Source: Ceratorhiza oryzae-sativae
Taxonomy: Eukaryota; Basidiomycota; Agaricomycetes; Cantharellales; Ceratobasidiaceae
Length of the DNA: 64,000 nucleotides
Assembly: GCA_030998015.1 (NCBI GenBank)
Contig: JARWMV010000004.1
Location: forward strand, 372,001 to 436,000
Direction of reading: 5' to 3'
Position numbers and translations under genes: made by a program
Part shown: one piece after another, positions 12,558 to 37,410 of the stretch
Layout: each line of letters opens with the position of its first letter
How positions within the stretch are numbered: the first letter of the stretch is position 1
Notes under the pieces: model-generated
Seen by the model: only the letters and a program-made list of their open reading frames with translations
Told to the model about the DNA's origin: nothing
Database searches by the model: none

Positions 12558-13490
12558 TGTCAGTGGCAATAAGTCAGGTGATGGTGTGAACACCTTGGAT
12601 CACAGGAGCAGAGCCTGTAGAAAACTAGGTGACAACAACAATGGGGGTAAAGGTGACAGCAACACATCAAAAGGTAGAGAGTAAGAGTAGAACAAGACTT
12701 GTATTGACAAGGAGGTCAAGTTTGTGAGGAGACCTTGTCAAACTTGACCTTGTTACAGGTCAGGGTACACTAGAATATCTAGAGCTTAAGCAAATGTAGA
12801 TATGTTAGTATACACTAATCATACTCAATACTTCTTAGACTAGAGTAAGAAGGCTCAAAGTAGTTGCAATGCAATCAAGTAACACTCAAGGTAGTCTTAA
12901 TCTTTCACAGTGTAAACTGACTAATTTATAGGTATAAACAGCAAGACTACTATGGTCAGGTTCCCTTAGATATCTTAAATGTAGTTCAGCCCTAGTTGCT
13001 TGGACTAACTGATACTAATCTTAATACTAGACTTAAGCAATAGCATATAGGATAGATGGTGGGCTGCCTAATGTGTGTACTTCCTCAGCTACAGGTACTT
13101 AGATTTCCTCTAATAGCAGGTACTTAATGTCATGCTCAATCAGGCAATATTGCATCCTTATATATCTCTGTATATAAGATACAATGAATCAGACAGTATA
13201 TAACTAATATGGTACTTTATTCCTCAGTACTAGTTATATAAGAAATCACTCAGACAAGAGAAATAGAAAGAGAAAAGAAACCAATAACCAGTCTGGGTTG
13301 AGTAAGAGTAGGAGGGTGGTCTGGAAGGGCCTCAGAGGAGGTCCTTTTATACCCTGAGGAGGGCATTCCAGAGCCAAATAGATACATGCATGCCAGTGCA
13401 ATCATCAAAAGAGGGTACTGCTATACTTGGGGTACACCCTAGCCCAGTATAGGATATGAGAGTAAAGACAGGGTGTGGATTGAAGGCATT

Positions 13491-14046
13491 TGTTATGACC
13501 TGTCAAACGGACATAACAAAACAACCAAATATTTCTACAGATTTATGGCATTTTTCCTAAGTGGAACAAGCCATAAACAAGGTCACGTGACCTTGGTGCT
13601 TAGCTGGCGCTTATGGTGGTTACCCTGAACTCGCTCCAGCATTTCTCTCCATTGTTACTTGGAGCAAGGAGCGAGTTGTCACGTGATCTCGGCGCTTACG
13701 GCAGGATCACGTGACCTCAGCGCCTACCCCTCGGACCTCGCGCAGCTCTATAAGATTCGGAGCCACACAAACTTAAGACAAACAATTACCTAACCCATAG
13801 TACTATACATAACCTACACCTACTGCGGAGTGTGCTTAGATAATACGTCTGCAGCCACCGCAGCCACAGGTATATATAAGGAGGATAAAGCAAGACTGGA
13901 CGCCTCAGCTTGCTTTATCTCGTCAACCACCATAGACCATAGCAAACACTGTAACTAGAACACTCAATACATACTGCATAGCACCAAACCGTCAACGTAG
14001 CCACTACTTAAGTGCTCCACCAGGGAGCCTCCAGAGGGTCACAACA
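13491..14046 (+). repeat. 5' LTR of Gypsy copy B
   Basis: 556 bp, TGTTATGACC to GTCACAACA. It contains three CACGTG palindromes (near 13585, 13680 and 13709), a TATA-like CTATAAGA near 13747 and TATATATAAGG near 13871. Confidence 0.92.
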
Positions 14047-14167
14047 TTATAAAGCAAGCTCTTAACTTAACTAGTGGCGAACACAAGTATACTACACAGA
14101 TACTAAGGGCTGAGTACACGAGAAAACCAGCTAACTCCTGTGATACATAAGAGAACACAAAGAAACT

Positions 14168-15934
14168 ATGTCACAGAGACCACAAACTCGATCTCAAAGC
14201 AGAGTGGCAAATAGTAGGCCACAATCACCCAAACCCATTGCTTCCCCAGAGGCGGAAGGTAACCCAGATGAGACCCTCCAAGGAATGCCAGGGGGGTTGC
14301 CACAAAACCCAACCAGTGGCTCAACCCAACCCCACTGGGCCCCCATCCTGGGAGGGGAAATAGGGGGAATACCACTCCGCAGCCCTCAACTGCCAATTCA
14401 CCTGATAAATCCAGACCCAGAAGATATCTCAAATCCAGAGAGGGATGAGGTAGAAGATATGACCCGAACCATATACGAACAAGGCACAGCCTTGGCGGAA
14501 GAGGCAAGGACACAACCCCAGCCAGGTCCCGGAACCATAGCCACTGCCAACCCTATTCACACCATTGCCAGCCATCAGGGCGGGGCTCAAGGAACTTAGA
14601 GACAATAATCATAGGGAACTAGAAAAGGCAATCACGGGTATAAATCAGTGTCAAATATCACTAACCCGACAAGAAGGAAACGTGGACTGGATGGTAAGGT
14701 CAATGGAAACATCCAACAAAAATGTCCTCTATGTGGCAAAGAACCAGGACGACCTAAAAGCAGAAATGGGGAACCTGATAAAAGAATTAAAGGACATCTC
14801 CATGGAAATAAACCGGGTACTGGGAATGCAAGAGCGAAAGCTCGAAAGCTTAGAGAAGAAAACCGAAAACACAGGGGAGATCCTAATCGCACTAGAACAA
14901 CGGGTAACCGATCTAGGAAATGAGCTCCGGAAAACAACTGAAGCAGGAAGGCCAAGGGAAAGGACAGAAGAAACCAGGGGAAGAACTAGGGTGGTCATAG
15001 GAAGCCCCTCACGATCCCCCTCAGCCTCCCCAGTACGAACACCCTTTCTGGGAAGAACCTTCCAGGCTGAGTCCACAATAAGACCCCGAACAGAACCTCC
15101 ATCCCAAGCAAACCAACCTACCCTTGCTGCAAACCACACTCCTAAGGAGGCACGAGACTAGGGAGACCCAGCAAATTTAATGGGAAAAAGGGGAAGGAAG
15201 CAGAGAACTTCATAATCAGCATGGAACTTTTCTTTGCTGACTATGACGAATCAGCCTTTGATGACCGAAAAAAGATATCTGCTGTGCTAATGAACATGGA
15301 GGATGGGGAAGCAGCAAACTGGGCACAACCTTACCGCCGGAAACTACTAGCAGGCGAACACACAGGTATTCTTGCATCCTGGAAGGATTTCAGGAAGGGA
15401 TTCCTGGATGCTTTTAATGACCCAGTCATAAAGGAAAAGACCATCCGGAAACTAAGGAAATTAACACAGACCAAGAGTGCATTGGATTATGCTACCCAAT
15501 TCCGGATCCTGATCCAAGAGGTAGACTGGAACCAGGAAGCCCTCAAGGACCAATTCAGGGAAGGGTTAAAACCCGAAGTACGACAAGAGATCTTAAGGAT
15601 TGAAGTACTGGCAAATGAGGCTGAAGGTCCATCATATACCTTAGATCAATTAATCGACTTTGCCTGCAAAATGGATGACATGCAGTTTGCAAACCAGAAA
15701 ATGAATACAAGGACCAGCAACTCATCAAATTCAACCTGGGCACCAGCGAAATACAAACAAGGGGGGAACAAGCCTTTAGGGACCAGTGGCAAACAGGGGA
15801 ACACCCAAACCAACAACATGGTAAGGATACCAAACAGTGAAAAGGACAGGCGAAGGAAAGAAGGACTCTGTATCAAATGCGGTAAATCAGGGCATGTCCT
15901 GAAGGAGTGGAGGCCAGTGGACCTACAAAGCTAA
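14168..15934 (+). pseudogene. Gag polyprotein, Gypsy copy B, frameshifted
   Basis: Gag would package the element RNA in cytoplasmic particles. It starts MSQRPQTRSQSR at 14168, the same start as copy C at 31107. A 2 bp deletion near 14565 compared with copy C, and a second break near 15150, split it into three frames. The middle part is rich in charged heptads (MGNLIKELKDISMEINRVLG) and looks coiled coil. The third part (15221-15934) is the capsid-type domain, with YATQF and LKPEVRQEILR, and a zinc knuckle CIKCGKSGHVLK whose last Cys is lost to a frame change (copy C keeps it). Non-functional as read. Confidence 0.8.
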
Positions 15935-16012
15935 GATACAAGGGAAGGCCAGCAGACAAGTTGAGGAAGAAAGCAGCTCTGAGTCGGAAAACTAATTGGT
16001 CCTACCACTTCC

Positions 16013-19000
16013 ATGTTGGAGGACCCCAATATAACCCCTACCGCAGATGTATGTTACCTCAAGAAGTCTAGTAATCAATCAATAATATACACTACGGTAG
16101 AGGGAATCATGGAACCAGCTAAGACGCTGATTGACTCAGGATCTTCAACCAACTTCATCGATAAGGCCTATTCAAGGGAAAAAGGGATTCCAACCACTCC
16201 CCTCAAACACAAGAAATCAATTGTGGCCATTGATGGAAATGAAATCAAGGATGCCATAGAAGAAAGGGCAGAACTAAACATCGAAGTGGAAGGGAAGACA
16301 CTAAAATGCTCCCTTTATGTAATGACCCTAGGTGACACAGACATAGTCCTAGGGAAAGAATGGCTTGAAGAAGCAGAACCTATCATAGATTGGAAAGACC
16401 TTACCATCTCATACCCAACGAAATCAAGGCAAGGGCAGCAAGTGAAAGCCTACAAATCCCAGAAGAATTTAGGGATTTTGAAGACCTATTTGGGGAAGAA
16501 GGTTTCCGAGAACTTCCACCCCACCGAGGTAACCTAGACTTCAAAATGGACCTGATCGAGGGAGAGCTGCCAAAGCCTGCAAAGAGGTACAGTATGTCGC
16601 CAGCAGAAACAAAGGCGCTCAGGGAGTACCTAGAGGAGGAACTAAGAAACGGGAAAATAAGGCCCAGCCAGTCAGTTGTAGCTGCACCCTGTTTCTATGT
16701 GAACAAAGCAGATGGAGGGCTTAGGTTGGTAGTCGACTACCGTAAGATGAATGACATCACCAAGCCAGACAGGTTTCCACTTCCAATCCAAATAGAATTG
16801 ATTGAGAGACTGAAGGATGCAACCATCTATTCAAAAATGGATGTTCGATGGGGGTTCAACAACATCAGGGTAAAAGAGGGAGACGAATGGAAAACAGCTT
16901 TCAGGACAGGAGAAGGCCAGTTTGAATGCTTGGTCATGCCATTCGGAGTAAAAGAAGGACCAAGAACCTTTACCAGGTTCATGATGGAAAAGTTCCGTGA
17001 TATAATAGACGATTATGTGGTAATCTACATGGACGATGTACTAGTGTTTTCCAGAAACAGGGAAGAACATGTACAACATGTCAGGGAAGTGTTAAGAAGA
17101 ATGAGGGAAAACCACCTCTTCCTCAAACCACACAAGTGTCAGTTCTTTGTGAAGGAGGTAAGCTTCATTGGAATTGTCATATCCCCAGAAGGGATATCGA
17201 TGGAAAAGGAAAAGGTAAAGGCAGTTCTAGAATGGCCAGAACCTAACACAGTAAAAGAAGTCCAAGCCTTCCTAGGCTTCGTGGGGTTCTATAGAAGGTG
17301 GATAGAGAAGTTTAGTACCTTAGCCAAACCCCTCACAGATCTCACCCAAAAAGATGTCAAATTCCTGTGGGAAAGAAAACAACAGGAAGCATTTGAAGCT
17401 ATCAAAGAAGCAGTAGCAAGAGAACCGGTCCTGATCCACCCAAACCCAAACAGGCCATACATACTGGAAACAGACGCCTCAGGAGTGGCCATGGGGGCGG
17501 TACTAAGCCAAAAGGGTGATGACAACCGATTGCATCCAATTGCCTTCCTATCGAAGAGCTTCACCCCACCAGAGAAAAATTATGACACCTACGACAAGGA
17601 GTTGCTTGCAATTGTTAGGTCCTTAGAGCACTGGAGGTTATACTTAGAAGGGACAGAGGAACCTATTGTGATATACACTGACCATAGGAACCTCCAGTAC
17701 TGGCAAAATGCCCAGATGTGGAATAGAAGGCATGCCAGATGGTATCTCACTCTGGCACCCTTCAATTTTCAGATTGTGTACAGACCAGGGAAACTCTCAC
17801 AGAAGCCAGATGCCCTTTCCAGAAGGAGCGACCATGGGGATACCCCTATGGAACCACAGATCATGATTCCAGAAGAAAGGTTCATAGGTTTCATGGCAGA
17901 AGTACAGGGGAATTTCTGGGAAGAGCTTAAAGAAGCTCAGGAAGAAGACGAATCTATCAGATCCTTAAGGCTGAGTGTGGCAAATAAAGAACAACTACCG
18001 CCCTCAGTACAGAAGGAATTTAGACGGTATGAAATGAAGGAGGGCCTATTAAGGTATGACGATAGGCTCTACATCCCAGATGACAAGGACTTGAGGTTGA
18101 GTCTCCTTGAGGAGTGCCATGACGCCCCAGTGGCAGGTCATCAGGGACAAGCCCGAACACTAGAATTACTATCAAGGGATTACTATTGGCCAGGAATGAA
18201 GGCCCAAGTAAACCGATACGTGGAATCTTGTGAAACATGTCAAAGAAGCAAAGGACACAAACAAGGCACTCCCTGAAGTCCTTACCAATCCCATGGAAAC
18301 CATGGGCAGATGTCGCATATGATTTCATCGTCAAATTACCTGTCTCAAAGGGGTACGACAGTATTTGACAGTTGTAGATCGCTTCTCCCGGCAGGCCCAT
18401 TTTGTACCATGTCTGGAGAGCACCAATGCAGAAGAACTGGCAGAAATATTCATAAGGGAAGTATGGAGACATCACGGGACCCCAGAAACCACTGTCTCAG
18501 ACCGAGGGCCAACCTTTAACAGCCAATTCCTAAAGCCCTATACAAAGGAATTGGGACAAAGCCCAGATTCTCCACTGCTTTCCATCCAGAAACAGATGGT
18601 CTGTCGGAAAGGACAAATCAATGGGTAGAAGGGTTCTTAAGAACCTTCTGCAATTATAGACAAGATGATTGGGTAAAATGGTTACCCATTGCCGAATTCT
18701 GCCATAACAACCACGTAAATGCTACAACAGGACAAACCCCATTTGAAACAGTATATGGAAAAAACCCAAGATGGGTTGTGAGAGGGAGAAGAACCATCTG
18801 AGGCACCCGCTGCAGACAACATGCGTAATCAAATGGAAAAGGTATGGGATGAGGCAAGAGCCTCAATGGAATTACACCAACAAATGGAAAAGAAAGGGAG
18901 GGAATTCAAGGTAGGAGACAAGGTTTGGCTGCTCCTAACAAACCTCTCGTCCAAGAGACCCTCCAAGAAACTGGACAACCAAAAAGGGGGGCCCTTTGAA

Positions 19001-19415
19001 ATCACAGAAAAGATCTCATCCCATGCATATCACCTGGACCTACCTAAAACCATACGTGTACACAATGTATTCCATGTAAATCTCCTCTGCCATTCACAGA
19101 AGATAAAGACTTCCAAGAAGGCAGGCCAAACCACCACCAATCATAACGGAAAAAGGAGAGGAGGAATACGAGGTGGACCACATTGCAAATTATGAATGGC
19201 GGAATGGCGAGCTGTTTTACCAAATCAGATGGAAGGGCTACGACCCAATAGAAGACACAATGGAACGTGCCAGCAAGTTTGCTGACATGAAAGAGGTTCT
19301 AAATGACTTGCAAAGGCGCTTACCAGACACACCAATGCCAGTCAAGACAAGTCAGCACTCAGGTGACTCGAAAGGCAGGCCAAAGAGAACCAAACAAGGA
19401 TCTGGAAAGCTTTAA
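16013..19415 (+). pseudogene. Pol polyprotein with chromodomain, Gypsy copy B, frameshifted
   Basis: Domains in order: aspartic protease (LIDSGSSTNF near 16125); reverse transcriptase with intact VIYMDDVLVFS near 17022; RNase H (LETDASGVAMG near 17463); integrase zinc domain (HDAPVAGH...CETCQRSK, 18118-18252) and catalytic core (18300-18700); C-terminal chromodomain (about 19170-19330, LFYQIRWKGYDPIEDTMERA), which in this class is thought to steer integration to marked chromatin. Compared with copy C, 1 bp losses near 16420, 18268 and 18362 and others break the frame, so no full polyprotein can be made from this copy. Confidence 0.88.
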
Positions 19416-19468
19416 AAAGAGCCATCCAAGATACCCAAGAAAGGCCAGAGCCTGCTCTACCACCTCAC

Positions 19469-21627
19469 TTGCACCACAACACACCTGCGAAACCCCAAAA
19501 CATGCCTTTCGTCACTCACCCAGTTGCACATCCCAACCGTTACACCCCACTTGCTGAAAATCAGGTTGCCCCACTTTGGCAGCCACCCACCACCAGGCGG
19601 CCAGCACCCTACCCTGGCAGGGAAAATCGTCCTAAACCAGGGATGTACTGCTCCAGTGTGGAAGACGCTGTTATGGATCACTAACATTTTCTATTATTTT
19701 AGTCTGCTCAGCCAACAAGCGATGCCTCTGTAATTAAATTGTGAAATACTCGAATTTGTATGCGCTCTGAATTGTACTATTTTCTGTTTCATTAAATAGT
19801 ACAAAATTCCCGCTCTCCAACGCATATTTTATTAAGTTTTTACGATAAGATCTCAGAGAGATACAGAGGTTGCGATATTTCCTCTTATCAGGAGATATTG
19901 ATTACAACATCGCACCGCTCATATCTCGGCAACCGCTTACGCTATCAAAGCGATCTTGTGCTCTATCGACAGCCAATCTTCGGCGGTATCTGCTGCCCGA
20001 AGATCGTCGCGATCCACTGGATCCTCGCGCCGGAATGGCCCGAAGATCATTAGAATCTTACTGGACCATCAATCAAGATCTAATGACTCCAGTGAGTCAG
20101 GAGAGCTTCCCAAATTGATCCAGAAGCTTCTCTGACTCACTTTATGACTCACTGAGATGTAGCCTCCATTCATTACATGTATATACTATGAATATGATCT
20201 ACAAGCCAATAGCAGGTCTCAGATGCATCAATGCCTTCGATCCACACCCTGTCTTTACTCTTTTATCCTATACTGGGCTAGGATGTACCCCAAGTATAGC
20301 AGTACCCTCTTTTGATGATCGCACTGGCATGCATGTATCTATTTGGCTCTGGAATGCCCTCCTCAGGGTATAAAAGGACCTCCTCTGAGGCCCTTCCAGA
20401 CCACCTCCCTCTACTCAACCCAGACTGGTTATTGGTTTCTTTTCTCTTTCTATTTCTCTTGTCTGTGTGTGATTTCTTATATAACTAGTACTGAGGAATA
20501 AAGTACCATATTAGTTATATACTGTCTGAGACATTGTATCTTATATACAGAGATATATAAGGATACAATATTGCCTGATTGAGCATGACATTAAGTACCA
20601 GCTATTAGAGGAAATCTAAGTACCTGTAGCTGAGGAAGTACACGCATTAGGCAGCCCACCATCTATCCTATAAGCTATCGCCTAAGCCTAGTATTAAGAT
20701 TAGTATCAGTTAGTCCAAGCGACTAGGGCTGAACTACATTTAAGATATCTAAGGGAACCTGACCATAGTAGTCTTGCTCTTGATACCTATAAATTAGTCA
20801 GTTTACACTGTGAAAGATTAAGACTACCTTGAGTGTTACTTGATCGCATTGCAACTATTTTGAGCCTTCTTACTCTAGTCTAAGAAGTATTGAGTACGAT
20901 TAGTGTATACTAACATATCTACATTTGCTTAAGCTCTAGATATTCAAGTGTACCCTGACCCATAACAGACGCCCAGAGGTACGCTGAACAACTGTTGCCA
21001 GGGGCTAACCTAGTATACATCCCAAAGAAGTTAAGGGATGAAAGGAACTGGATTGACGATGACAAGTACCTGGATCCCAGGTTAGGGGTCCTGACATGGC
21101 ATGGAAGCTGGAAGCCAACAACAAGAAACGCCTTGTTAAGAACACCAATGTATGTCGTCGACAATATCATGGGACCAACAGTCGACGTGGTGACCAAGGC
21201 AGCAAGACAACAGAGGAGGGCCACAGGCCAAATGGCAGACGGAGGGGACTGGGAGGTGGAGCGCTGGGCAAAGGCATTGCTGGAAGAATGGAAGTTGACA
21301 CCAGCTGCACTGTATGTGGGACTGCTCGAAGCAACTACCACTGATGAGATGTTTACTGCTATCAGGACAAAGCAGGCAAACATGAATGACTTCCGAAATT
21401 GGGTGAAGGTGCACCCAAACAAAAACACCAATTACGACACTGATATGACAAGCCTTACATCAAGCCTAGAATCACTGGTCGTGGCTGAGGAAGAAGCCAA
21501 GCCAGAAATAAAGGAACCCACCCTGGACCCAGCTGCAGAGGAAGCCAAACAGGACTGGGACCGGTGGGAAAACAAGCTTGTCGAAGCTCTGGAGGAGGTG
21601 CCACTGTTGGAACCAACCCCCATATGA
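19469..21627 (+). pseudogene. ORF-X, element cargo protein of unknown function, interrupted by D3
   Basis: Exactly interrupted by solo LTR D3: the frame runs 19469-19668 and resumes at 20973-21627, with codons restored across the GACGC duplication. It would give about 284 residues. The N-terminal 60 residues are Pro, Gln and basic rich. The middle part has LLPGANLVYIPKKLRDERNW and DPRLGVLTWHG, followed by a helical acidic region ending EALEEVPLLEPTPI. No catalytic motif, membrane segment or signal peptide is visible. Copy C has the same frame without D3 (43338-44210). It lies between the chromodomain and antisense ORF-Y, convergent with the latter (82 bp apart). I do not recognise the family; a structural or accessory role is a guess only. 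Confidence 0.6.
19669..20967 (+). repeat. Solo LTR, family D (D3), inside ORF-X
   Basis: 1299 bp, TGTTATGG to CCATAACA, target duplication GACGC at 19664-19668 and 20968-20972; copy C shows the empty site at 43550. It has a TATA box (GGGTATAAAAGGACC near 20366) and AATAAA near 20497, in the order expected for an LTR. Confidence 0.92.
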
Positions 21628-21708
21628 CCACTTTGCCTCCCACAAATTGTCTCCCGAATGTATAAGAGTTTTATTTTTCTTTTACACACCAAACTTAATA
21701 CATTTCTT

Positions 21709-22250
21709 TTACTCTCTATTTTTACGTTTGCCCTTGAGGGGCCGGGTATAGGGCTTCTTGCCCCTGTTATCCTTCTTATTGGTCCGAACAACTGACCGGG
21801 TAGTGGGCTGCAGCCAAGGAGCCTCCCCCCCTGGGAGGTCGGCCATGTAGTTCTGGAAACACCCAGAACCAGACGCTGCAAAGGGCGAAGCCTCATCAAA
21901 CAAGGGAGCAGAGCCCTCCTCGAAGAATTCGGCAAGAGCAGCCTGGTGAGACCGCTCCTCAAAGGACTTGTACTCCTGATCAACAAGCGCCCAGACACGC
22001 TCAAGGGTGGCCTCATGGGCCTGACCATCAAGGAGGATGTGCTCTTCTACAGAACGAGTTAGCTACGTGAGAATGACGAAGAACGAACACACATACCTGG
22101 CACCCCACAGAAGAACCAATCCCCAACACCTTGATAGAAGTCTTCAAGGGAGGCGTCGCACACAGCATCACAGTAGGCGCAGTACTCCCCCTTAGGGAGA
22201 GACCAGAAGGTGCAGTCAAGGGGATTGTAGTTAAGGGAAATAACATGCAT
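21709..22250 (-). CDS. ORF-Y, spliced antisense cargo gene of unknown function (copy B)
   Basis: Exon 1 is 22250-22097 and exon 2 is 22046-21709, with a 50 bp intron (GTATGT to TGTAG). Splicing gives about 163 residues without stops. The N-terminal exon has three Cys in SLPKGEYCAYCDAVCDAS and ends DWFFCGVP. Exon 2 is acidic and helical (ERVWALVDQEYKSFEERSHQ). The tail is strongly basic (NKKDNRGKKPYTRPLKGKRK), suggesting nucleic acid binding or nuclear import. It is antisense to the retrotransposon and diverges from Rep across a 680 bp spacer. Copy C has the same two exons and the same intron length (44288-44820). An intron on this strand would survive reverse transcription of the sense transcript, which fits its retention. 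Family not recognised. Confidence 0.65.
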
Positions 22251-22752
22251 AGTAAAGAATGGGATGAGGAAGGAAAACAACAAAACCACGAACATTAAAA
22301 AAAAATCACAGTGCAACACAATAACTTGCACAAACATCAAAACAAGGACTGGTCAGGTGACACCAACAGACACGTGACCATCTGCCAGAAAACAAACAAC
22401 AAAGCATGGGAATCACATGACTTAGCCTAGTCACGTGACCACCTGCCAGAAAACAAACAACAAAGCACAGGAATCACATGACCTAGCCTAGTCACGTGAA
22501 TATACGCTATCCCCTAACTACCGGAGGCGTCAGAGAGGGGGCACCAACCGAAGTGGGGGAGCGGAGGCCCCGAGCGTAGCGAGGATCAAGGCTGACGTGG
22601 AGGAACGGATGGGAGGGCACCCCTTGGAGATGCGTCATCACCGAAATAAGGTCATGTGATCACAACAAATGCAAGATGGAGTCATGTGACAATCAAAACG
22701 GACCTTGCAGCTTATATAGACAAGCACAAGGCCCAAGATAACCCGCACTCTC
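22251..22752. promoter_or_regulatory. Divergent spacer between ORF-Y and Rep, copy B
   Basis: 502 bp without a gene. It holds the 61 bp repeats, a poly-A run near 22297, and a TATA-like CTTATATAGACAAG near 22711 about 40 bp before the ATG at 22753. I did not find the geminivirus-type nonanucleotide TAATATTAC. Confidence 0.5.
22371..22499 (+). repeat. Two tandem 61 bp repeats in the ORF-Y/Rep divergent spacer
   Basis: The units are 22371-22431 and 22432-22492, each opening with CACGTGACC, with a third CACGTGA at 22493-22499. Copy C has one unit only (44937-44997). They could be iteron-like Rep sites or upstream activating elements. Confidence 0.7.
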
Positions 22753-22933
22753 ATGCTCTCTTCCCAGTCCCCAAACACCTCTAAAACTGTAAACGATGCT
22801 AAGCGGAAATGGATCGAACGCAGCAACACGCCAGCCAAGCGGATCAAGCGAAGGGCAGAGGTCGGCGTCGCCATCACCAGCGCCCTTGGTATCAAGCTGA
22901 GCCCCCTCGCCCGCTTCTATGCGGCCTACGCCG
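22753..22933 (+). other. Short frame upstream of Rep with a nuclear-localisation-like cluster
   Basis: An ATG at 22753 opens a frame with NTPAKRIKRRAEV, offset from the Rep frame. A 55 bp GT-AG intron (GTATCAAG to ATCAAG, ending about 22942) would join it in phase to Rep, giving a longer nuclear-targeted N-terminus. In copy C the acceptor is not conserved in place, so this is a suggestion only. Confidence 0.3.
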
Positions 22934-24082
22934 ATGGATCAAGGGTCCAAAGAGCTGACCGAAACCGCGCCGGCCCCTCGGTTCCGTGTCCAGACCAGGG
23001 CGGTGCTGCTGACCTGGTCGAAGCTACGCGATCAGCCCTCAAGTGGGCTCGTCGCCTGATACGAGGCGTTCTGCCACCAACGGCCAAATCATTGGGCGAC
23101 TTTGGCGGTGGTGGAACGCCACAACCCCGAGGAACTGCACTACGACCCGGCCCAGCCCCTCCATGTCCACGCCCTCTCCATCAGTCAGGAGCGGAAGGGC
23201 AGCTGGAACACCCAGAACACCCAGTTCTGGGACTTTGAGGGGCAACACCCCAACATCCTGCCGAAGGACCTCAAGGACGGACCAGGAGGCAACCCAGCAA
23301 GGGATGCCTTCAACTATCTTTGGAAGGACGTTGGAGCTAATGGCAAGGAGATAGAGGACCTGATGGCGGGGGACCTGACCTTGGAAAGGTTGGAGGAGAT
23401 TTTGGTAAAGGGAAAGGGCGGAAAAAGGTCAAGGATGGAGGCAGACTTGGAGGATGGGACGGAGATTGTTGCTGAGGCAACAAAACAGGAGTACTACCAG
23501 GCGTTCAAGCGCCTCTGCCCCCTCCAGATGGTGACGACGTGGAACTCGGTACAAGCATATGCCAAGTACACATACAAGGAAGACCAGGGTTGCATGCCTG
23601 CAATCCCTGTGGAGTTAGAGGTCCCGGAAGACCGGGAGCACATTGACCGAGCAGACAGATGGTTTGCCGAGGAAGTCAAGAAGAAGGGAAGAGGGGTGCG
23701 CCATCACATCCTGGTGATAGAAGGAGAAACTGGAATGGGGAAAACAGCATATGCACGATCCAAGGGCTGCCACAGCCAGATGTGCAATGTGTGGAATATG
23801 GGCAACTTGTTGGAAGATGCCGACATTTGGATCCTGGATGACATGGTCCAGTTGAACAGGAAGTACTCGCTCAAGGCCCTGAGCCAGTACGAGGCGGACT
23901 TCACAGGCAGGTACGCGCATGTGAAATCGATGAAGGTACGGCCAACAGTCATTCTGGGAAATAGCTGGTCGGCAATCATGAAATGTTGGTCAGACATAGA
24001 GGGGGAAGAAGGGGACTTATGGGTATCAAGAAATGTGGAATGGGTGTATGCAGGAGGAAAGCCATTCTTTGTATTCCCTTAG
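22934..24082 (+). pseudogene. rep-like: CRESS-DNA-type replication initiator (Rep), copy B, one premature TGA
   Basis: A 382-codon frame, normal Rep length, broken only by TGA at 23057-23059 where copy C has CAA. Motifs in order: HUH motif I VLLTWSKL (residues 24-31); motif II LHVHALS (His at 77 and 79, metal binding); motif III YLWK (Tyr128, the nicking Tyr in this family, and Lys131); Walker A GETGMGKT (264-271); Walker B DIWILDD (297-303); motif C VILGN (Asn343). Family proteins nick an origin and unwind DNA as hexamers for rolling-circle replication. Here the gene sits inside a retrotransposon, in sense, between ORF-Y and the 3' hairpin. The helicase region is fully open. It could be an endogenised viral or plasmid gene recruited as cargo. 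A later ATG (23102) would skip motif I. Confidence 0.85.
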
Positions 24083-24199
24083 AATAATTTATGGTACTGT
24101 ACAACTTCTGCTATGCCCATCCAAACAGTTGGGGCTTTCTGAGAAGAAGCAGACAAATCCTCACCCCTAAATAACCTCCACAACAAAGAAAAGAAAAAC

Positions 24200-24326
24200 A
24201 ATCTCATGTAACAGAGAGGTTAAGGGGTCTAGCCTGACTCAGCCTGACCCCATCGAACGATACTGAATCAGCCGAAAGGTCGTTGGTTCGAGTCCAGCGC
24301 CCTTAACCTCCTTGGTGCATGAGATT
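24200..24326 (+). other. Conserved long hairpin with perfect Pol III B-box (copy B)
   Basis: Outer arms AATCTCATG (24200-24208) and CATGAGATT (24318-24326); inner arms GAGGTTAAGGG (24216-24226) and CCCTTAACCTC (24300-24310). Positions 24282-24298 fold as a tRNA T-arm, GTTGG-TTCGAGT-CCAGC, and contain the exact B-box GGTTCGAGTCC. An A-box-like TAGCCTGACTC lies upstream with one mismatch. The D and anticodon arms do not fit a normal tRNA. Confidence 0.6.
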
Positions 24327-24391
24327 CCTTTTGCATAAGGAACTAAACCATGTCTCGAGGTCCCCCAAGACATGTCCAAAGGGGGGGATAA

Positions 24392-24948
24392 TGTTATGAC
24401 CTGTCAAACGGACATAACAAAACAACCAAATATTTCTACAGATTTATGGCATTTTTCCTAAGCGGAACAAGCCATAAACAAGGTCACGTGACCTCGGCGC
24501 TTAGCTGGCGCTTACGGTGGTTACCCTGAACTCGCTCCAGCATTTCTCTCCATTGTTACTTGGAGCGAGGAGCGAGTTGTCACGTGATCTTGGCGCTTAT
24601 GGCAGGATCACGTGACCTCAGCGCCTACCCCTCGGACCTCGTGCAGCTCTATAAGATTCGGAGCCGCACAAACTTAAGACAAACAATTACCTAACCCATA
24701 GTACTATACATAACCTACACCTACTGCGGAGTGTGCTTAGATAATACGTCCACAGCCACTGCAGCCACAGGTATATATAAGGAGGATAAAGCAAGACTGG
24801 ACACCTCAGCTTGCTTTATCTCGTCAACCACCATAGACCATAGCAAAACACTGTAACTAGAACACTCAATACATACTGCATAGCACCAAACTGTCAACGT
24901 AGCCACTACTTAAGTGCTCCACCAGGGAGCCTCCAGAGGGTCACAACA
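24392..24948 (+). repeat. 3' LTR of Gypsy copy B
   Basis: 557 bp, preceded by the polypurine tract AAAGGGGGGGATAA. It differs from the 5' LTR mostly by CG against TG or CA. Confidence 0.92.
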
Positions 24949-25863
24949 GCATTGATGCATCTGAGACCTGCTATTGGCTTGTAGATCATATTATCATGGT
25001 ATATACATGTAATGAACAGAGGCTACATCTCAGTGAGTCATAAAGTGAGTTAGAGAAGCTTCTGGATCAATTTGGAAGGCTCTCCTGACTCACTGGAGTC
25101 ATTAGATCTTGATTGATGGTCCAGTAAGATTCTAATGATCTTCGGGCCATTCCGGTGCGAGAATCCGGTGGATCGCGACAATCTTCGGGCAGCAGATAGC
25201 GCCGAAGATTAGCTATCGATAAAGCATAAGATCGCTTTGATAGCGTAAGCGGTTGCCGAGATATGAGCGGTGCGATGTTGTAATCAATATCTCCTGATAA
25301 GAGGAAATATTGCAACCTCTGTATCTCTCTGAGAGCTTATTGTAAAAACTTAATGAAATATGTGTTGGAAATTGGGAAATTTGTACTATTCAATGGAATG
25401 GAAAATAGTACAATTTGGAGCACATACAAATTCAAGTATTTCACAAATTAATTACAGAGGCATTGCTTGAGGTTGGCAGAGCAGACTAAAATAATAGAAA
25501 AATATTAGTGATCCATAACAGACCTGGTCTATATACAATTTTCAAGCCATATCAAAACAAGCACAACTATACTACAAGTCAAATCACTAAGTGATAGAAG
25601 CTGCTGCAGGGCTGCAGAATTTCACATCAAAGTTGAAATACATCTTGGTAAGTGGTCTGGAACATTCCATGAGTCACATGATACAGTTGTCCCATAACAG
25701 GAAAGTGTGTTTCAAAAATGTTCTTAAAAATTTTAATAAATCAAGAAAATATTATAAGGTGAATATATGTGTGTCAGGTCATGACACTCCAAGTACAGTG
25801 GACAGAAAAATGATTGCAGCACTTGACAAAAAATTGACCAATCTCAACTCTAAGGGGAATATT

Positions 25864-27839: not shown

Positions 27840-29227
27840 GGTGTCACAAACCCCTGCCCCTGCCTGGGCAAATATGTCAGATGGGGAAAAAGTTATCTAT
27901 GTGCTTCAGTCAATGGACGAATTGCAAGAATGAACCAGTAACCTCCAAAATGATATTGGAGATGTTGAGCACAACAATAAAACCTATACAGACTTGCTCA
28001 AAACAAGACTCACCACAAACCAGACTAAGATAGATGCCAATGTGGCTGGACTGGCCACCAATGTTAACAACCTAGTCAGTATGCTAACAATACTCCAAAC
28101 CACTATCACACGCATTGAAGCGCAAATCAATACCTCCTCAGGTGGCTCTGGCACCACCCAGGTACAACCCTCCTCCAGCATGACCCAGCCACAACTGGCC
28201 ACCACCACCTCCTCTAGCAGATCAACTGCAAGAGTTAAAATGGCTGCACCACAAAAATTTGATGGCACAAAGCGTGAAGACACTATTTTGTTTAGAATCG
28301 TGTGTGCTCAATACATCAACACAAGCATGAGTGGGCACTCTGCTGATCAGGTGGTTGCCTTTATCATGTCTTATCTTGAGGGGTCTGCTGCTGAATGGGT
28401 CAACTCATATGAGGAGTTTGAAATCCTAAACCCTGGAACCACGATCCCATGGCTCCACAATGCTAACCTGTTTTGGCAAGAATTTACTACCTGATATGGA
28501 GACTTGAACCACACCAAAAATAACCATGATAAATGGCAGAAATTGAAACAATCCAAGATGGTCCAAGACTATCTTACCTTATTCGACCTATACTCAACAG
28601 GGCTCAATTACAATGATGCAGCCATGTGCAACCAATTCTATGATGGCTTATCATCCAATGTAACAGACAGCATGGTAGCCCAAAACTATGATCCCCACAC
28701 AAAAACCTTTGCTCAGCTTACTCAGCAGGCCCTGGAAATTGACTGCCACCTCATCTTGTTCAGTAGCAAAAGGATGTCCCATGGAGGTAACAAGTCTAGC
28801 AACAATAACACCTTGTCCAGTAAACTGATGACAACATCCCAAAGTGGCCCCACAAAGAAAAAGTTCAGGAATGGGGAGTGAATATACAAAATCAAGGACG
28901 GCAGGGCAGTAAAGGGCCAAATTGTGGCCATTGGGCCCAATGCCACAGGTTTCACAGTCCCTACTGTCTGCTATGATGGTAGCAACTCCAATGTCCAAGA
29001 GTCCTTCAAGGACATAAAGAAGGATAATCACCCGCCAGTGGCCTCCAAGGCAAAGGACCCAGACACAATGGACCTGGATAGTGCAGGAAAAGGGAAAGGG
29101 ACAAGTACCTGCTACAACTGTGGAGGGCGTGGTCATATTGCTGCCAAATGTCCCTCAGCCAAGATGTCAGGATACGAGGCAGTTGTAGAGGATGTAGAAA
29201 CAACCAATGATGAGTTGGTAAAAGAAT
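27840..29227 (+). pseudogene. Gag, Gypsy F, with several stops
   Basis: One frame for most of its length, broken by stops near 27932, 28492 and 28879. Features: a Thr/Asn-rich helical N-terminus (NVAGLATNVNNLVSMLTILQ), the capsid-type region FDGTKREDTILFRIV to QFYDGLSSNV, and a C-terminal zinc knuckle CYNCGGRGHIAAKC near 29110-29151. It would form the particle and bind RNA. Non-functional as read. Confidence 0.75.
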
Positions 29228-30428
29228 GAGCTCAAACTGTGCCAGGGGGGTGGTCTTGGGTGCTATGTTACAAAGTGTGCAGAGCAAAAATAAGAATATG
29301 GAAATGGAATGTATGTCGTTAGGAACCAATCACAACTTCAGTTTTTCTTTCATGCATTTCCCCTGCACACAACCCCTGAACGCAAGTCTGCATACAACAT
29401 GAAAAAGTTCAGAGGATGGGCCATAATTGATTCAGAGGCCACATCAGTATTTATACATGAAGACCTTGTTAAACAATATTGTATCCCTATTGTTGCCCTA
29501 AAAACACCAAAGAAACTACAAGTAATCAATGGAAGGGAGATTGACTTGGGGTCTGTGACCCACTATTGCACCTTCGAGTTGTGCATTCAGGAGCACCAAG
29601 AAATTCTCAGTGCTTATGTTGTAAATGTTGGCAAAAATGATCTAGTCCTGGACATGTCATGGCTCAAATTCCATAATCCTGACATTGATTGGGAAGGAAA
29701 GGACATGAAATTCAATTCACCAATATGCTTAAAGCATTGTGTTACCAAACCCCTACACGTGCAAGTGAATGAGCGCAAGGAGCTCCAGTTGGACTCTCTA
29801 GACTTGCTTCCAGCAAAATACCAGGAATTCAAGAAAATATTCACCAAAGAAGACAATGTTCAGCCATTACCACCCCATAGAAAGTGGGATATGGAGATAG
29901 ACCTAAAACCAGATGCCAAGCCAAGGCATGGTCCCATATATAGTGTGGGTGTCAAGGAAGATGTGGAATTGCGCAAGACCTTAGATCGCCAGTTGAAAGC
30001 AGGGGCATATTAGACCCTCAAGGTCACCAATGGCATCCCCTGTTATATTTGTTAAAAAGAAGAATGGGAAGCTGCACATGTGCATTGACTACTGGCAGCT
30101 AAACGAGATGACCACCTCCAATGTATACCCACTCCCACACACCAACAATATTGTGGAGACCTTGCATGAGGCAAAGATATTCACCAAGTTTGACTTAAAG
30201 TGGGGTTTCAATCTTATACAGATTCAGGAAGGAGATGAATGGAAAGCTGCTTTCAAGACCAAGTATGGATTGTATGAGCCCTTAGTCATGCAATTTGGCC
30301 AGAAGAACACACCAGGGACCTTTATGGCTATGATCCAAGAGGAATTCCAAGACATTGAGGGCATCTATGTGGTAATTTACATGGACGACATACTAGTGTT
30401 CTCCAAAACCCAAGAAGAGCATGATGAA

Positions 30429-30986
30429 TGTTATGACCCGTCAAATGGACATAACAGAGTAACCAAATATTTTTTATGGATTTATGGCATTTTTTCCTAA
30501 GTGGAACAAGCCATAAATAAGGTCACATGACCTTGGTGCTTAACTGGCACTTATGGTGGTTACCCTGAACTTGCTCCAGCATTTCTCTCCATTGTTACTT
30601 GGAGCAAGGAGCAAGTTGTCACATGATCTTGGTGCTTACAGCAGGATCACATGACCTCAGCACTTACCCCTTGGACCTTGCATGGCTCTATAAGATTTGG
30701 AGCCACACAAACTTAAGATAAACAATTACCTAACCCATAGTACTGTATATAACCTGTACCTACTGTGGATTGTGCTTAAATAATACATCCACAGCCACTG
30801 CAGCCACAGGTGTATATAAGAAGGATAAAGCAAGACTGGACACCTCAGCTTGCTTTATCTCATCAACCACCATAGACCATAGCAAACACTGTAACTAGAA
30901 CACTCAATACATACTGCATAACATCAAACTGTCAACGCAGCCACTACTTAAGTGCTTCACAAGGAAGCATCCAGAGGGTCACAACA
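30429..30986 (+). repeat. 5' LTR of Gypsy copy C
   Basis: 558 bp, same ends as copy B. The CACGTG palindromes of copy B read CACATG here. Confidence 0.9.
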
Positions 30987-32486
30987 TTATAAAGCAAGCT
31001 CTTAACTTAACTAGTGGTGAACATAAGTATACTACACAGATACTAAGGGCTGAGTACATGAGAAACCAGCTAACTCCTGTGATACATAAGAGAACACAAA
31101 GAAACTATGTCACAGAGACCACAAACTCAATCTCAAAGCAGAGTGGCAAATAGTAGACCACAATCACCCAAACCCATTATTCCCCCAGAGGCTGAAGGTA
31201 ACCCAGATGACACCCTCCAAGGAATGCCAGGGGGGTTGCCAGAAAATCCACAACCAGTGGCTCAACCTAACCCCACTTGGGCCCCCATCCTGGGAGGGCA
31301 AATAGGGGGAATACTGCTACACAGCCCTCAACCGCCAATTCTCCTGATAAATCCAGACCTAGAAGATATCCCAAATCCAGAGAGGGATGAGGTAGAAGAT
31401 ATGACCCAAACCATATACAAACAAGGCATGGCCTTGGCGGAAGAGGCAAGGACACAACCCCAGCCAGGTTCCAGAGCCATAACCACTGCCAACCCTATTC
31501 ACACCGTTGCCACCACCATCAGGGCAGGGCTCAAGGAACTTAGAGACAATAACCATAGGGAACTAGAAAAGGCAATCACAAGTATAAATCAGTGTCAAAT
31601 ATCACTAACATGGCAAGAAGGAAACATGGACAGGATGGTAAGGTCAATGGAAACATCCAACAGAAATGTCCTCTATGTGGCAAAGAACCAGGACAACCTA
31701 AAAGCGGAAATGGGGAACCTGATAAAAGAATTGAAGGACATCTCCATGGAAATAAACTAGGTATTGGGAACACAAGAGTGAAAGCTTGAAAGCTTAGAGA
31801 AGAAAACTGAAAACACAGGGGAGATCCTGACCGCACTAGAACAATGGGTAACTGATCTAGGAAATGAGCTCCAGAAAACAACTGAAGCAGGAAGGCTGAG
31901 GGAAAGGACAGAAGAGACCAGGGGAAGAACTAGGGTGGTCATAGGAAGCCCCTCACAATCCCCCTCAGCCTCCCCAGTATGAACACCCTTTCTGGGAAGA
32001 ACCTTCCAGGCCGAGTCCACAATAAGACCCCAAACAGAACCTCCATCCCAAGCAAACCAACCTACCCTTGCTGCAAACCACACTCCTAAGGAGGCGTGAC
32101 TAGGGAGACCCAGCAAATTTAATGGGAAAAAGGGGAAGCAAGCAGAGAACTTCATAATTGGCATGGAACTTTTCTTTGTTGACTATGATGAATCAGCCTT
32201 TGACAACCAAAAAAAGATATCTGCTTTGTTAATGAACATGGAGGACAGGGAAGCAGCAAACTGGGCACAACCTTACCACCAGAAATTACTAGCAGGCAAA
32301 CACACAGGGATCCTTGCATCCTGGAAGGATTTCAGGAAGGGATTCCTGGATGCCTTTAATGACCCAGTCATAAAGGAAAAGACCATCCGGAAGCTAAAGA
32401 AATTAACACAAACCAAGAGTGCATTGGATTATGCTACCCAATTCCAGACCCTAATCCAAGAGGTAGACTGGAACCAGGAAGCCCTC

Positions 32487-32759
32487 TGTAGAATACAAAT
32501 ATACAAATACATAGATACATAGATACATATTGAACATGCCAGAATAAACTAGCAATCGCATGACTCGTGTAGTACGAATCGTGTACTTACTGTAACGTTC
32601 TACAATGTACTAGAATGTCTCTTTTCTGTGTATATAAGGAGCTCTGTTTCGCTCCGTAGGCAGACACCTGCTCACTCAAATATATTATATTTACCTGTCT
32701 TAAGCACACTGTGCTCCGCACGTATAGAGTGATATATACATATAGTTTACATTTCAACA
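32487..32759 (+). repeat. 5' LTR of Copia I
   Basis: 273 bp, TGTAGAATAC to TTTCAACA; TATA-like TGTATATAAGGAGC near 32629. Confidence 0.93.
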
Positions 32760-32771
32760 GGTTATGAGCCC
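32760..32771 (+). promoter_or_regulatory. Primer-binding site, Copia I (half-tRNA type)
   Basis: GGTTATGAGCCC is complementary to GGGCUCAUAACC, the anticodon arm of initiator tRNA-Met. Ty5 and copia use a tRNA fragment cut in this loop as primer. Confidence 0.75.
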
Positions 32772-35700: not shown

Positions 35701-36137
35701 CCTCACGCTCACTCAGTGATATGAAGCCCGGTACCACAATCACAACTCGCAGTGGCAGCACTGGCCAACCTGCCCTGCGACTTGAGTCCTTGCGCGGACC
35801 TATCAAGATTAGTGTCCTGGACGATCAAGGTAACCTACCTATAGCTCAGATACATGGAAGCGAGCTTCCAGACTTACAAAATACCGAAGATTTAACGAAT
35901 GTATGCGTCGACGATAACCAATCTGAGGGCGACAATTGTATTAGCCGACCCACCAGTCCTCCACCTCTTGCCCATCTCGTCCCTTCAGATGAAATCGCTG
36001 AACACCAGTCTAACCAGGCTGCGATTGCTACTGCCAAGGCGATCGAATATGTATTCACGCATGCATTCTATGAAGGAATTGCACACCAATCGTTGCTCAA
36101 TCGCTCGGGATTCGATGAAGATCATCTGACATATGTA

Positions 36138-37410
36138 CTCGCGCTGACATAAAGTTTATGAACACGTGATCATTCTTGCACCCAGGCTGCCCTCTCTTGC
36201 CTTGATAACTCAAAATCGTGTAACTAAAACCTTGTAGCATACATAATAGAAATTGAAGTAGACCATACGAGCTTTCATTAAAACCTAGTGTGTCCACCCT
36301 TGGCCTTCAAAACTGCCTGAACTCGAGCATCCATCTGACCCCATGCATATTCACCTCTCAATAGTAATCGAGTCCCAAGTCCTTCCTGAGCCGCAGCCCA
36401 AAGACGTTCAACACTATTGCCAGACCCCCTAATCTTCGCCACACAGGATTTGAGGATCAGCCATAGAGGCTCGATCGGGTTAAGGTCAGGGGAACTTGGG
36501 GGGTGGGGGAGCTGGGTGATGCCTAGTCGCTTCCGTGCCTGTTGTGTGACTTTTGCACGGTGTGCAGCAGCCCCATCCTCCACAACGAGCATGTCTAGAC
36601 CTTGTTCTTGCCCTACGTGCCTCAGGAAGTCGAGCAGCGGTCCTGAGAGCACTTGATCAATGTAACCCTGAGCTGTCAATCCGCCACCCTTTCTCCGTCC
36701 CTTTGCAGAGATGCTGACTGGTGCGGTTTTGAGGCGGATGAGTGGTCCCTTGTAGCCATAGGCAACACAGGACCATACGCTGAGGGAAATGCGGCCGCTT
36801 CGAAATGTGGGGACAACACATTCGGTAAGATTTTGCTCATTGGTTTTGCGTGTGACCCTCGGGCGGCTAGGTTGCTCTCCGCTCTCAATGTGAGCTTCAT
36901 CAGTCCACCCAACACCTAGCCAGTTCCTCCCTCTGTTATCCCGAGCCCATTGCAGCCGCTTACCAACCGTGGTTCGCTTCAGGTATGGTTTGCGGCGAGC
37001 AACTCTCCGGCGATAGCCCTCCTCGTAAGCGACCCTTCGGACCATTCGCTCGCTGACAAAGCCCAGTCGCTCAGCAATCATTTTGTAGGTGTCAAAACGG
37101 TTCTGGCGGATAGTCCGCATGATAGCACGGCGTGTGGTAGAGCTGATAGTTGGAGGGCGCCCAGAACGAGGCAGAGATTGGATGGAGTGGTGTTTAACAT
37201 TCCTCTCAACAGTATTGTAAGCTACACTGACAGAGACGCCCACTTTCTGCGCAATGTCGCGGTATGCGTAGCCTTCTTTCCGAAGTATAAGAATAGCCCC
37301 TCGCTGGGCCTGTGTGAGCTTGGGAGCATGACCACGCGGCATGGGAAAGGGGAGAGTGCGATGAGAATCAGTCACGTGACGCGCGTTCATAAACTTTATG
37401 TCAGCGCGAG
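36138..37410 (-). mobile_element. Mariner/Tc1 element inside Copia I
   Basis: 1273 bp flanked by TA at 36136-36137 and 37411-37412. The inverted repeats start CTCGCGCTGACATAAAG and are identical for the first 26 bp or so. The insertion lies between integrase and RT of Copia I. It is CpG rich and uninterrupted, and so the youngest-looking element here. Confidence 0.93.
36278..37342 (-). CDS. Mariner/Tc1 DD34E transposase, intact
   Basis: An intact frame of 354 residues. I chose the ATG at 37342 (MPRGHAPKLTQAQRG) because it lies inside the element; the frame extends upstream into Copia I by chance. Residues 1 to about 110 carry the paired helix-turn-helix DNA-binding region (YAYRDIAQKVGVSVSVAYNT) and the GRPP linker (SLPRSGRPPTIS). 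The catalytic triad is complete: GWTDEAHIESG (first Asp), LVVEDGAAAHRAK (second Asp) and SSPDLNPIEPLW (Glu), with 34 residues between the last two, as in Tc1-type DD34E enzymes. It would excise and insert the element at TA in the nucleus. About 68 bp lie between the right end and the start codon. Likely functional or very recently so. Confidence 0.93.
   Translation of the reverse strand: MPRGHAPKLTQAQRGAILILRKEGYAYRDIAQKVGVSVSVAYNTVERNVKHHSIQSLPRSGRPPTISSTTRRAIMRTIRQNRFDTYKMIAERLGFVSERMVRRVAYEEGYRRRVARRKPYLKRTTVGKRLQWARDNRGRNWLGVGWTDEAHIESGEQPSRPRVTRKTNEQNLTECVVPTFRSGRISLSVWSCVAYGYKGPLIRLKTAPVSISAKGRRKGGGLTAQGYIDQVLSGPLLDFLRHVGQEQGLDMLVVEDGAAAHRAKVTQQARKRLGITQLPHPPSSPDLNPIEPLWLILKSCVAKIRGSGNSVERLWAAAQEGLGTRLLLRGEYAWGQMDARVQAVLKAKGGHTRF

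Follow-up and report, generated by a model that had tools for sequence, protein, structure and literature searches.

Long terminal repeat (LTR) retrotransposons and rolling-circle replicons tend to be regarded as two distinct modes of DNA copying, and in the open-access literature (subscription journals were mostly outside the scope of the search) we found no LTR retrotransposon with a Rep gene. The sole precedent found there for a retroelement with Rep is that of the Terminons, giant Penelope-like retroelements at the telomeres of bdelloid rotifers, which can carry a rolling-circle Rep besides the reverse transcriptase and for which a review suggests circular intermediates (PMC6431247). Here we describe a family of Ty3/Gypsy retrotransposons found in a stretch of 64,000 nucleotides (hereafter the window, in whose positions all coordinates are given) from the basidiomycete Ceratorhiza oryzae-sativae (assembly GCA_030998015.1, contig JARWMV010000004.1, positions 372,001 to 436,000 of the forward strand). 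Between pol and the 3' LTR, the copies of this family (such as B and C in the window) carry a cargo of three further genes: an open reading frame (ORF) named ORF-X, a spliced antisense gene named ORF-Y and a Rep-like gene. The Terminons are of the Penelope type, endonuclease-deficient, telomeric and up to 40 kb long (PMC6431247), whereas the family of copy B has LTRs, an integrase and a chromodomain, its RVT_1, RNase H and integrase domains and its LTRs being of the Gypsy and not of the Penelope type.

Other described elements share single features with this family. The plant retrotransposons Retand, Grande and RIRE2 have antisense ORFs between pol and the 3' LTR, and, like the fungal element, they have a conserved antisense gene in that region, with tandem repeats in about half of the Retand elements; unlike the fungal element, Retand carries TRP28-domain proteins of unknown function, the accessible portion of the paper does not name Rep, and the word "intron" does not occur in its main text (PMC11963269). 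The truffle Tuber melanosporum likewise offers a fungal mobile element of high copy number whose Rep is geminivirus-like (42 genes or remnants of it), but this one is a DNA transposon, bounded by terminal inverted repeats and equipped with transposase ORFs (PMC3198968). Finally, an extra enzyme gene has also become fixed in a Gypsy family of Phalaenopsis, although the enzyme is another one (an AlkB-type demethylase with tested activity, which acts on RNA), the host is a plant and the element is 25 kb long (PMC9289625). A selected Rep-like gene within LTRs would make it testable whether the DNA circles of retroelements are dead ends or can be replicated, and would represent a viral-type replication gene turned into a standing gene of a retrotransposon, while ORF-Y offers a natural case of a spliced antisense gene in such an element. 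Together, the selected Rep-like gene and the two further genes of the family suggest a mobile element that may, in addition, act on circles of its own DNA.

The retrotransposon family and its cargo

Copy B (13491-24948, plus strand) is flanked by a 5' LTR (13491-14046, TG...CA) and a 3' LTR (24392-24948), outside which lies a 5-bp target-site duplication (GCATT at 13486-13490, repeated at 24949-24953). Reading of the 5' LTR locates a likely RNA start region at 13873-13918, formed by TATATAA (13873-13879) and, 34 nt further downstream, AGCTTGCTTTAT (13907-13918), and the primer binding site (PBS) ATAAAGCAAGCT at 14049-14060 is the exact reverse complement of the latter, which we take to be the Tf1-type self-priming plan. 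The gag region (14168-15934; Retrotrans_gag with E 2e-13 and Ty3_capsid with E 3e-11, both in the ORF 15146-15934) is followed on the same strand by the aspartic protease (15983-16537; RVP_2, E 1e-10), by the reverse transcriptase, RNase H and start of the integrase (16369-18276; RVT_1 E 1e-33, RT_RNaseH 3e-36, Integrase_H2C2 3e-23) and by the integrase remainder, Tf2-type SH3 and chromodomain (18277-19420, with frames broken in B, where SH3_Tf2-1 nevertheless matches with E 1e-18). The order is thus that of Gypsy elements (gag, protease, reverse transcriptase/RNase H, integrase), the integrase being recognised by its zinc-binding, SH3 and C-terminal domains. The Pfam Chromo model reaches 25.8 bits in a sister copy (L032; cut-off 25.1) and is not called in the decayed copy C. 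At the other end, the polypurine tract (PPT) AAAGGGGGGGATAA (24378-24391) adjoins the 3' LTR in a PPT/LTR junction pattern. The PBS complementary to the predicted RNA 5' end, the Tf2-type SH3 and the chromodomain are shared with Tf1-type chromoviruses; to our knowledge, Tf1 has no cargo downstream of pol.

The PBS and the PPT adjoin the LTRs and the cargo lies between them, more precisely between the chromodomain and the PPT, and therefore within the transcribed and reverse-transcribed unit. Its first gene, ORF-X (273 aa in L031, a fairly intact copy), consists in B of two parts (19502-19668 and 20973-21627, plus strand), between which lies a solo LTR of 1.3 kb from another family (19669-20967, plus strand), which has its own GACGC duplication (19664-19668 and 20968-20972) and is nested in the element without belonging to it. 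ORF-Y follows on the minus strand, with exon 1 at 22097-22250, a 50-nt intron at 22047-22096 (GTATGT...GCTAAC...TAG, in which GCTAAC is branch-like) and exon 2 at 21709-22046, the two exons encoding together 163 aa. After a divergent spacer (22251-22795) comes the Rep-like gene (22796-24082, plus strand), which encodes 428 aa in intact copies and is interrupted in B by TGA stops at 22898 and 23057. A preliminary description of this DNA had placed a module of these genes inside the LTRs of a chromodomain Gypsy element, and this arrangement is borne out, since the PBS and the PPT lie outside the module and the gene order is constant. Concerning the two smaller genes, the description was right about the presence of ORF-X in the module and the antisense placement of ORF-Y, but ORF-X is not continuous in B, and ORF-Y is a gene of two exons. 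We place the element among the chromodomain Ty3/Gypsy retrotransposons, as one in which a Rep module is a standing part, rather than among the endogenous single-stranded DNA (ssDNA) viruses.

The size of the family was assessed in the 48.8-Mb assembly (253 contigs). With the Rep of B as query, at least 119 loci were scored out of 225 candidates in the whole genome (two rows of one locus being merged), and three patterns from the element ends, allowing up to three mismatches, matched 164 (PPT/LTR junction), 156 (hairpin arm) and 153 (LTR/PBS junction) times, the reversed control of each giving 0 matches. All 30 loci that were read around Rep have the order Rep, hairpin region, LTR. Among the matches listed, a scored Rep lies no more than 3 kb upstream of 73 of 100 PPT sites, which leaves 27 without one, and for the hairpins the corresponding numbers are 76 and 24 of 100; when 12 of those 27 PPT sites were read, every one contained Rep sequence, whole or partial, which brings the element ends read to 42 (30 + 12), all with Rep. 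In the opposite direction, each of the 79 scored Rep matches on contigs C1-C232 is followed within 3 kb by a hairpin or PPT of the listed set; 10 of the other 40 are among the 30 loci read, so that the check covers 89 of the 119 loci (20 being in both sets). In these 89 of 89 checkable loci, Rep is followed by the hairpin or PPT and the LTR, and the situation that would have undone the preliminary description, with the cargo lying outside LTR boundaries at other loci, was not encountered.

ORF-X was scored in 136 loci and ORF-Y in 148, with pieces merged (141 of 145 rows were entered for ORF-X, the four weakest short pieces being left out, and 150 of 150 for ORF-Y), and ORF-Y is antisense to and downstream of ORF-X in 135 of the 136. 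Upstream of Rep, the scored lists place ORF-Y in 103 of the 119 loci, ORF-X in 96, both in 95 (the number of Rep loci that share all three cargo genes, which the preliminary description had left to be counted) and neither in 15; ORF-Y in the same orientation as Rep occurs in 0 of 119. Conversely, among the matches listed, a scored Rep is within reach of at least 103 of the 148 ORF-Y loci and 95 of the 136 ORF-X loci, the remainder including truncated copies. With well over 100 copies in the genome, B and C are far from being the only ones, and the Rep module is, from its distribution in the assembly, a standing part of a large family and not a chance capture.

The predicted 5' end was fetched for 20 of the 30 loci, and both LTR ends were found in 16, of which ten have perfect 5-bp duplications (CTACC, GAAGA, CTCGA, CCAGT, AGGAA, CATAA, TGATT, ATCAG, CCTGA and CAGGG). 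These are mutually different and, together with those of B (GCATT) and C (ATGAA), correspond to twelve separate insertions with the cargo inside. The constant gene order and these different duplications confirm the earlier proposal, then based on B and C, that the module was multiplied by retrotransposition. Segmental duplication of the copies was also considered and is disfavoured, because ten copies have different target duplications. Between the 5' and 3' LTRs of each of the twelve insertions there are 1-12 differences in 302-310 compared non-repeat positions (73 in total, of which 54 are CpG-type transitions); some insertions are therefore young.

The intron of ORF-Y was surveyed in 32 rows (30 loci, B and C), which represent 31 distinct sequences because B is identical to one of the loci (L001), and two of which (L013 and L023) have no ORF-Y start. 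The intron pattern (48-52 nt) is present in 27 of the 29 distinct sequences with an ORF-Y start, several of these having their frame broken elsewhere, and the remaining two (L028 and C) show diverged yet recognisable splice-like letters at the same site. An intron in the sense orientation should vanish when the spliced RNA is reverse transcribed; that of the antisense ORF-Y is safe, since the sense genomic RNA is not spliced there, and its retention fits a putative expression of ORF-Y from its own minus-strand promoter. Neither ORF-X nor ORF-Y matched any Pfam family; the C-terminus of ORF-Y is basic, and a word-limited search of 5.8 billion proteins turned up no relative of ORF-X at E<=1. In a single comparison, a predicted protein from Ceratobasidium sp. 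AG-Ba (P0030, RhiLY_12191) consists of a Rep joined to an ORF-Y-like C-terminus (37% over 46 aa, E 3e-4), a predicted fusion that gives a hint of ORF-Y near Rep in another species.

The Rep-like protein and its candidate sites

The frame of the Rep-like gene is open from ATG to stop in 10 of the 30 fetched loci, and in two more, L026 and L027, it is fused to another frame that lies upstream. The family proteins contain, in this order, LTWS, PLHVHALTIS and YLWK, which we take to be motifs I, II and III of HUH nucleases, followed by GxTGTGKT, ILDD and ILGNS, the Walker A, B and C motifs of an SF3 helicase. In the rows with letters, the catalytic positions are 83-100% conserved: each position of LTWS in 22-24 of 26, the two histidines in 28 of 28 and 27 of 28, the tyrosine in 26 of 29 and the lysine of motif III in 25 of 30, the Walker A lysine in 29 of 31, the two aspartates in 30 of 30 and 27 of 29, and the asparagine of ILGNS in 27 of 28. 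All six motifs are common to proteins from Ceratobasidium and from metagenomes; the named relatives are all from Ceratobasidium, with identities of 47-80% (69-76% for the best full-length ones) among the scored candidates, namely those sharing most words. Motif names and order are known from the Reps of geminiviruses and of the SsHADV-1 type, which the fungal protein resembles in having motifs I-II-III, a central domain and then the SF3 Walker A-B-C order; in 10 of 35 members, the geminivirus central-domain profile (Gemini_AL1_M) matches at E<=1, nearly in full and immediately before Walker A. Unlike those viruses, the element has no capsid gene or nonanucleotide origin that we could find, and its profile scores lie below curated cut-offs. 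The catalytic-domain profile Gemini_AL1 matches 1 of 35 members (E 0.23) and REP_ORF2-G2P 1 of 7 nuclease pieces (E 0.049), and neither Gemini_AL1 nor Gemini_AL1_M matched in the control genomes. We consider it very probable that the protein is a true HUH/SF3 Rep.

Searches of further collections gave little. PHROGs and NCBIfam returned at most weak, unrelated P-loop or replication-ATPase matches; two protein-pattern scans of IMG/VR, which holds few fungal viruses, found no relatives of Rep, and the U3 repeat pattern described below was not found there either; tblastn found none in a phage collection that also has few fungal viruses, and three plasmid records at E 9. A search for viral relatives with a Walker A DNA pattern gave nothing in its longer form and at least 120 stretches in its shorter form; of the 120 listed, none matched the Rep profile (the first 80 compared at E<=1 and all 120 at E<=10).

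Another open frame (22720-23238, plus strand), with its ATG 43 bp ahead of the Rep ATG, overlaps the N-terminus of Rep and resembles parts of Ceratobasidium gene models (P0036, 48% over 176 aa; P0080, 55% over 56 aa); over the conserved nuclease domain such likeness is expected anyway. It is this frame to which that of Rep is joined in L026 and L027.

The divergent spacer between ORF-Y and Rep contains a 61-bp tandem repeat, TCACRTGA sites and, about 80 bp ahead of the Rep start, TATATAG (22713-22719), because of which it looks like a two-way internal promoter for both genes. Downstream of Rep, a hairpin (24216-24310, plus strand) has 11-bp arms, GAGGTTAAGGG at 24216-24226 and CCCTTAACCTC at 24300-24310, which 0 of 100 shuffles reach with such a loop (about 73 nt); for short loops (3-20 nt) the region is unremarkable, being equalled by 68 of 200 shuffles. 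Inside the hairpin, GGTTCGAGTCC is a perfect B-box-like match, and the outer parts are kept between the subfamilies while the middle differs. Possibly the hairpin derives from a tRNA-like or Pol III element that has decayed, an idea that ARAGORN and Rfam do not back (no tRNA match) and to which the folding energies lend no support (z -1.4 and -0.1, the second sequence being without the last bases of the 3' arm).

Two further stem-loops are located in the U3 part of the 3' LTR. The first (24531-24569, plus strand), with arms CTCGCTCCA and TGGAGCGAG and TGTTAC in its loop region, is kept in both subfamilies; the second (24579-24616, plus strand) has TCACGTGA in both arms and 13 matched pairs with one mismatch allowed, a length which 0 of 200 shuffles reach, and is a candidate protein-binding or origin site. 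Both lie in a repeat unit of about 113 bp, which forms tandem arrays in many copies, with one to four units per LTR in the first subfamily and two stem-loops in each unit (the LTR variants were read from an anchor search that matched 162 places, many of them unrelated to the LTR). TCACGTGA is present in U3 as well as in the spacer between Rep and ORF-Y; the window contains it at 11 places, whereas 20 shuffles average 0.6, and nine of the eleven are in LTRs or spacer of the Rep-bearing family. Reverse transcription should equalise both LTRs of one copy; when the 3' LTRs of L002-L030 were compared with the matching 5' LTRs (L034-L053), the number of 113-bp repeats was often unequal between the two LTRs of one copy (e.g. 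L003, L005 and L008).

Selection and the possible role of Rep

For Rep, the ratio of nonsynonymous to synonymous divergence (dN/dS) was computed from the intact equal-length frames of nine of the 30 loci, seven of the first subfamily against two of the second (14 pairs). Between subfamilies, dS is 0.400 and dN 0.044 (ratio 0.11), or 0.277 and 0.016 (ratio 0.06) with CpG-type transitions masked; codons 61-234 give 0.20, or 0.11 after masking, and the values are lowest in the helicase part (0.05 and 0.03). Comparisons inside the first subfamily give 0.48, or 0.15 after masking, a higher value being expected where copies decay after insertion. ORF-Y (16 of the 30 loci, codons 1-126, nine copies against seven) gives 0.15 raw and 0.11 masked between subfamilies. 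ORF-X (L031 and nine chosen stretches, all with open frames, unmasked) gives 0.14-0.22 in the deepest pairs, which with dS of 1.4-2.1 are close to saturation, and 0.19-0.53 in shallower ones; L031 against the decayed copy C gives 0.34 raw and 0.22 masked. In all these comparisons the pairs share history and are not independent, and the choice of intact copies favours functional ones. All three cargo genes are under purifying selection. In L079 and L080, the first part of ORF-X is of one type and the last part of another, so that the subfamilies recombine.

Beyond the position of the cargo between pol and the PPT, its spread by retrotransposition, the presence of Rep in every element end read, the purifying selection and the antisense intron, all of which the sequence shows, we infer a role of Rep on the circular DNA of the element itself, be it binding, nicking or replication. 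The reading that we regard as probable, though with moderate confidence, is that of a high-copy chromodomain Ty3/Gypsy family in which ORF-X, the spliced antisense ORF-Y and a geminivirus-type Rep are standing genes, with Rep acting on the DNA of the element. The spacer would drive Rep and ORF-Y in both directions as an internal promoter; after reverse transcription, part of the complementary DNA would circularise; binding, nicking or unwinding of these circles by Rep would probably take place at the U3 stem-loops and TCACGTGA repeats, and this action would lead to more DNA copies or to a longer persistence before integration.

Several results weigh against this reading or parts of it. With regard to the protein, Rep passes no curated Pfam cut-off, the best Gemini_AL1_M match (P0011, E 0.001) reaching 19.5 bits where 24 are required; most members (23 of 35) have in common a weak match to nSTAND3 at the P-loop, with E 0.043 at best, and P0011 also weakly matches an ORC1-type model (E 0.007). 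When the fungus's own genome was searched, Gemini_AL1 found no match and Gemini_AL1_M three sub-threshold stretches, none at Rep loci. No credible sequence match was found in the PDB for the whole Rep, its helicase part or its nuclease part, and AlphaFold reached a pLDDT of no more than 36.5 and 40.3 from alignments of 23 and 55 sequences, which makes the predicted fold unusable. Because of the sub-threshold profiles, the nSTAND3 match, the absence of a PDB match and the unusable models, we call the protein Rep-like; the CRESS-type Rep that the preliminary description saw in B is upheld for its geminivirus-type motifs, with the reservations that the frame of B contains two in-frame TGA stops and that the profiles stay below cut-off. 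With regard to selection, the first 60 codons of Rep have a raw ratio of 0.66 between subfamilies and no masked synonymous change, and because of this zero divergence dual coding, a frameshift or recent recombination is possible there. With regard to the sites, the stem-loop with TCACGTGA arms was not seen in the six LTRs of the second subfamily that were examined, which have other U3 stem-loops; CACGTG is also a common transcription-factor site, and the U3 palindromes could be plain sites of that kind; the canonical nonanucleotide (NANTATTAC or TATTAC) is absent from both strands of a 10-kb stretch of L031. Finally, the 5' LTR was not found at its predicted place in four of the 20 loci, and the flanks do not match in six of the 16 copies with both LTR ends, as can follow from recombination or rearrangement.

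Antisense or accessory ORFs of other LTR retrotransposons are thought to act as regulators or on the host cell, and the best surviving alternative, which we nevertheless find doubtful, is that Rep is a selected gene but not an initiator, serving instead to regulate the internal promoter and the LTR through DNA binding or to act on the host cell (cell cycle, anti-silencing). The TCACGTGA core common to spacer and U3 and the lack of a canonical origin in the L031 stretch would agree with such a role, and so would the proposal for Retand that its accessory proteins are regulators (PMC11963269); yet the HUH and helicase motifs are both conserved, and a helicase part with the lowest dN/dS would be superfluous for a plain DNA-binding regulator. 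Rather unlikely in our estimate is a more ambitious form of the initiator role, a replicon with two modes, in which reverse transcription would be complemented by rolling-circle multiplication of circular DNA, the element's own Rep nicking the LTR stem-loops; the U3 repeats (the TGTTAC-loop stem-loop and, in the first subfamily, also the TCACGTGA palindrome) would then act as origin and Rep-binding repeats.

The preliminary description had likened the module to a small circular ssDNA genome absorbed whole. On this reading, a Rep-encoding virus or plasmid would have contributed not only Rep but also ORF-Y, as its gene in the opposite direction, and its intergenic region would have become the spacer. 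The divergent Rep/ORF-Y pair with a repeat-bearing spacer, seen in 103 of the 119 scored Rep copies, is what this origin would leave, but it is not supported, because no nonanucleotide (L031 stretch) or capsid gene (ORF-X and ORF-Y being checked against Pfam) was found. Additionally, ORF-Y is a spliced gene of 163 aa with a basic C-terminus and, like ORF-X, has no Pfam family; ORF-X has no relative in the word-limited protein search, IMG/VR and the phage collection (with their few fungal viruses) hold none of Rep, and the Rep call itself comes from motifs and sub-threshold profiles. We consider such an absorption improbable. That the cargo is a functionless passenger, captured by chance by an ordinary family, is very improbable: many copies, including B and C, do have stops or frameshifts, and the raw Rep ratio within the first subfamily is 0.48, but the between-subfamily ratios of 0.06-0.15 for Rep and ORF-Y and the presence of Rep in 42 of 42 element ends speak otherwise. 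We practically dismiss an independent mobile element inserting at one site of the retrotransposon, for which the module's own promoter-like spacer and 3' hairpin could be cited, since no element end without the module was seen among the 42 read, no Rep match lies away from the hairpin/LTR side in 79 of 79 testable cases, and neither empty sites nor solo modules were seen among the loci examined. The LTRs, the 5-bp duplications and the separate small Rep speak against a Helitron (RepHel, TC...CTRR ends, no target duplication), no Helitron search having been made.

Copies A and C and nested insertions

Copy C (30429-47436, plus strand), flanked by LTRs at 30429-30986 and 46879-47436 and by the duplication ATGAA, repeats the cargo order of B, as had been proposed: ORF-X at 43550-44210 (89% identity to B), ORF-Y at 44224-44813 (86%), Rep at 45263-46568 (87%) and a hairpin region with 92%. 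The recurrence of the Rep end, hairpin region and LTR in copy A (1-1066, plus strand) was also confirmed, these parts occupying 1-200, 201-510 and 511-1066 (the 3' LTR), respectively.

The region is rich in nested insertions. Copy C is interrupted at 32487-39395 by an insertion with terminal direct repeats of 273 bp (97% alike), whose ORFs appear copia-like by eye, and is itself hosted in the pol of a second, different Gypsy element (27934-30428 and 47437-49769), the matched protein pieces being 30-48% identical. In this second element the last pol ORF ends beside the 3' LTR, with no Rep match there. Copy B, in turn, is surrounded by a reverse-oriented LTR (12752-13490 and 24949-25469) of the same family as the solo copy in its ORF-X.

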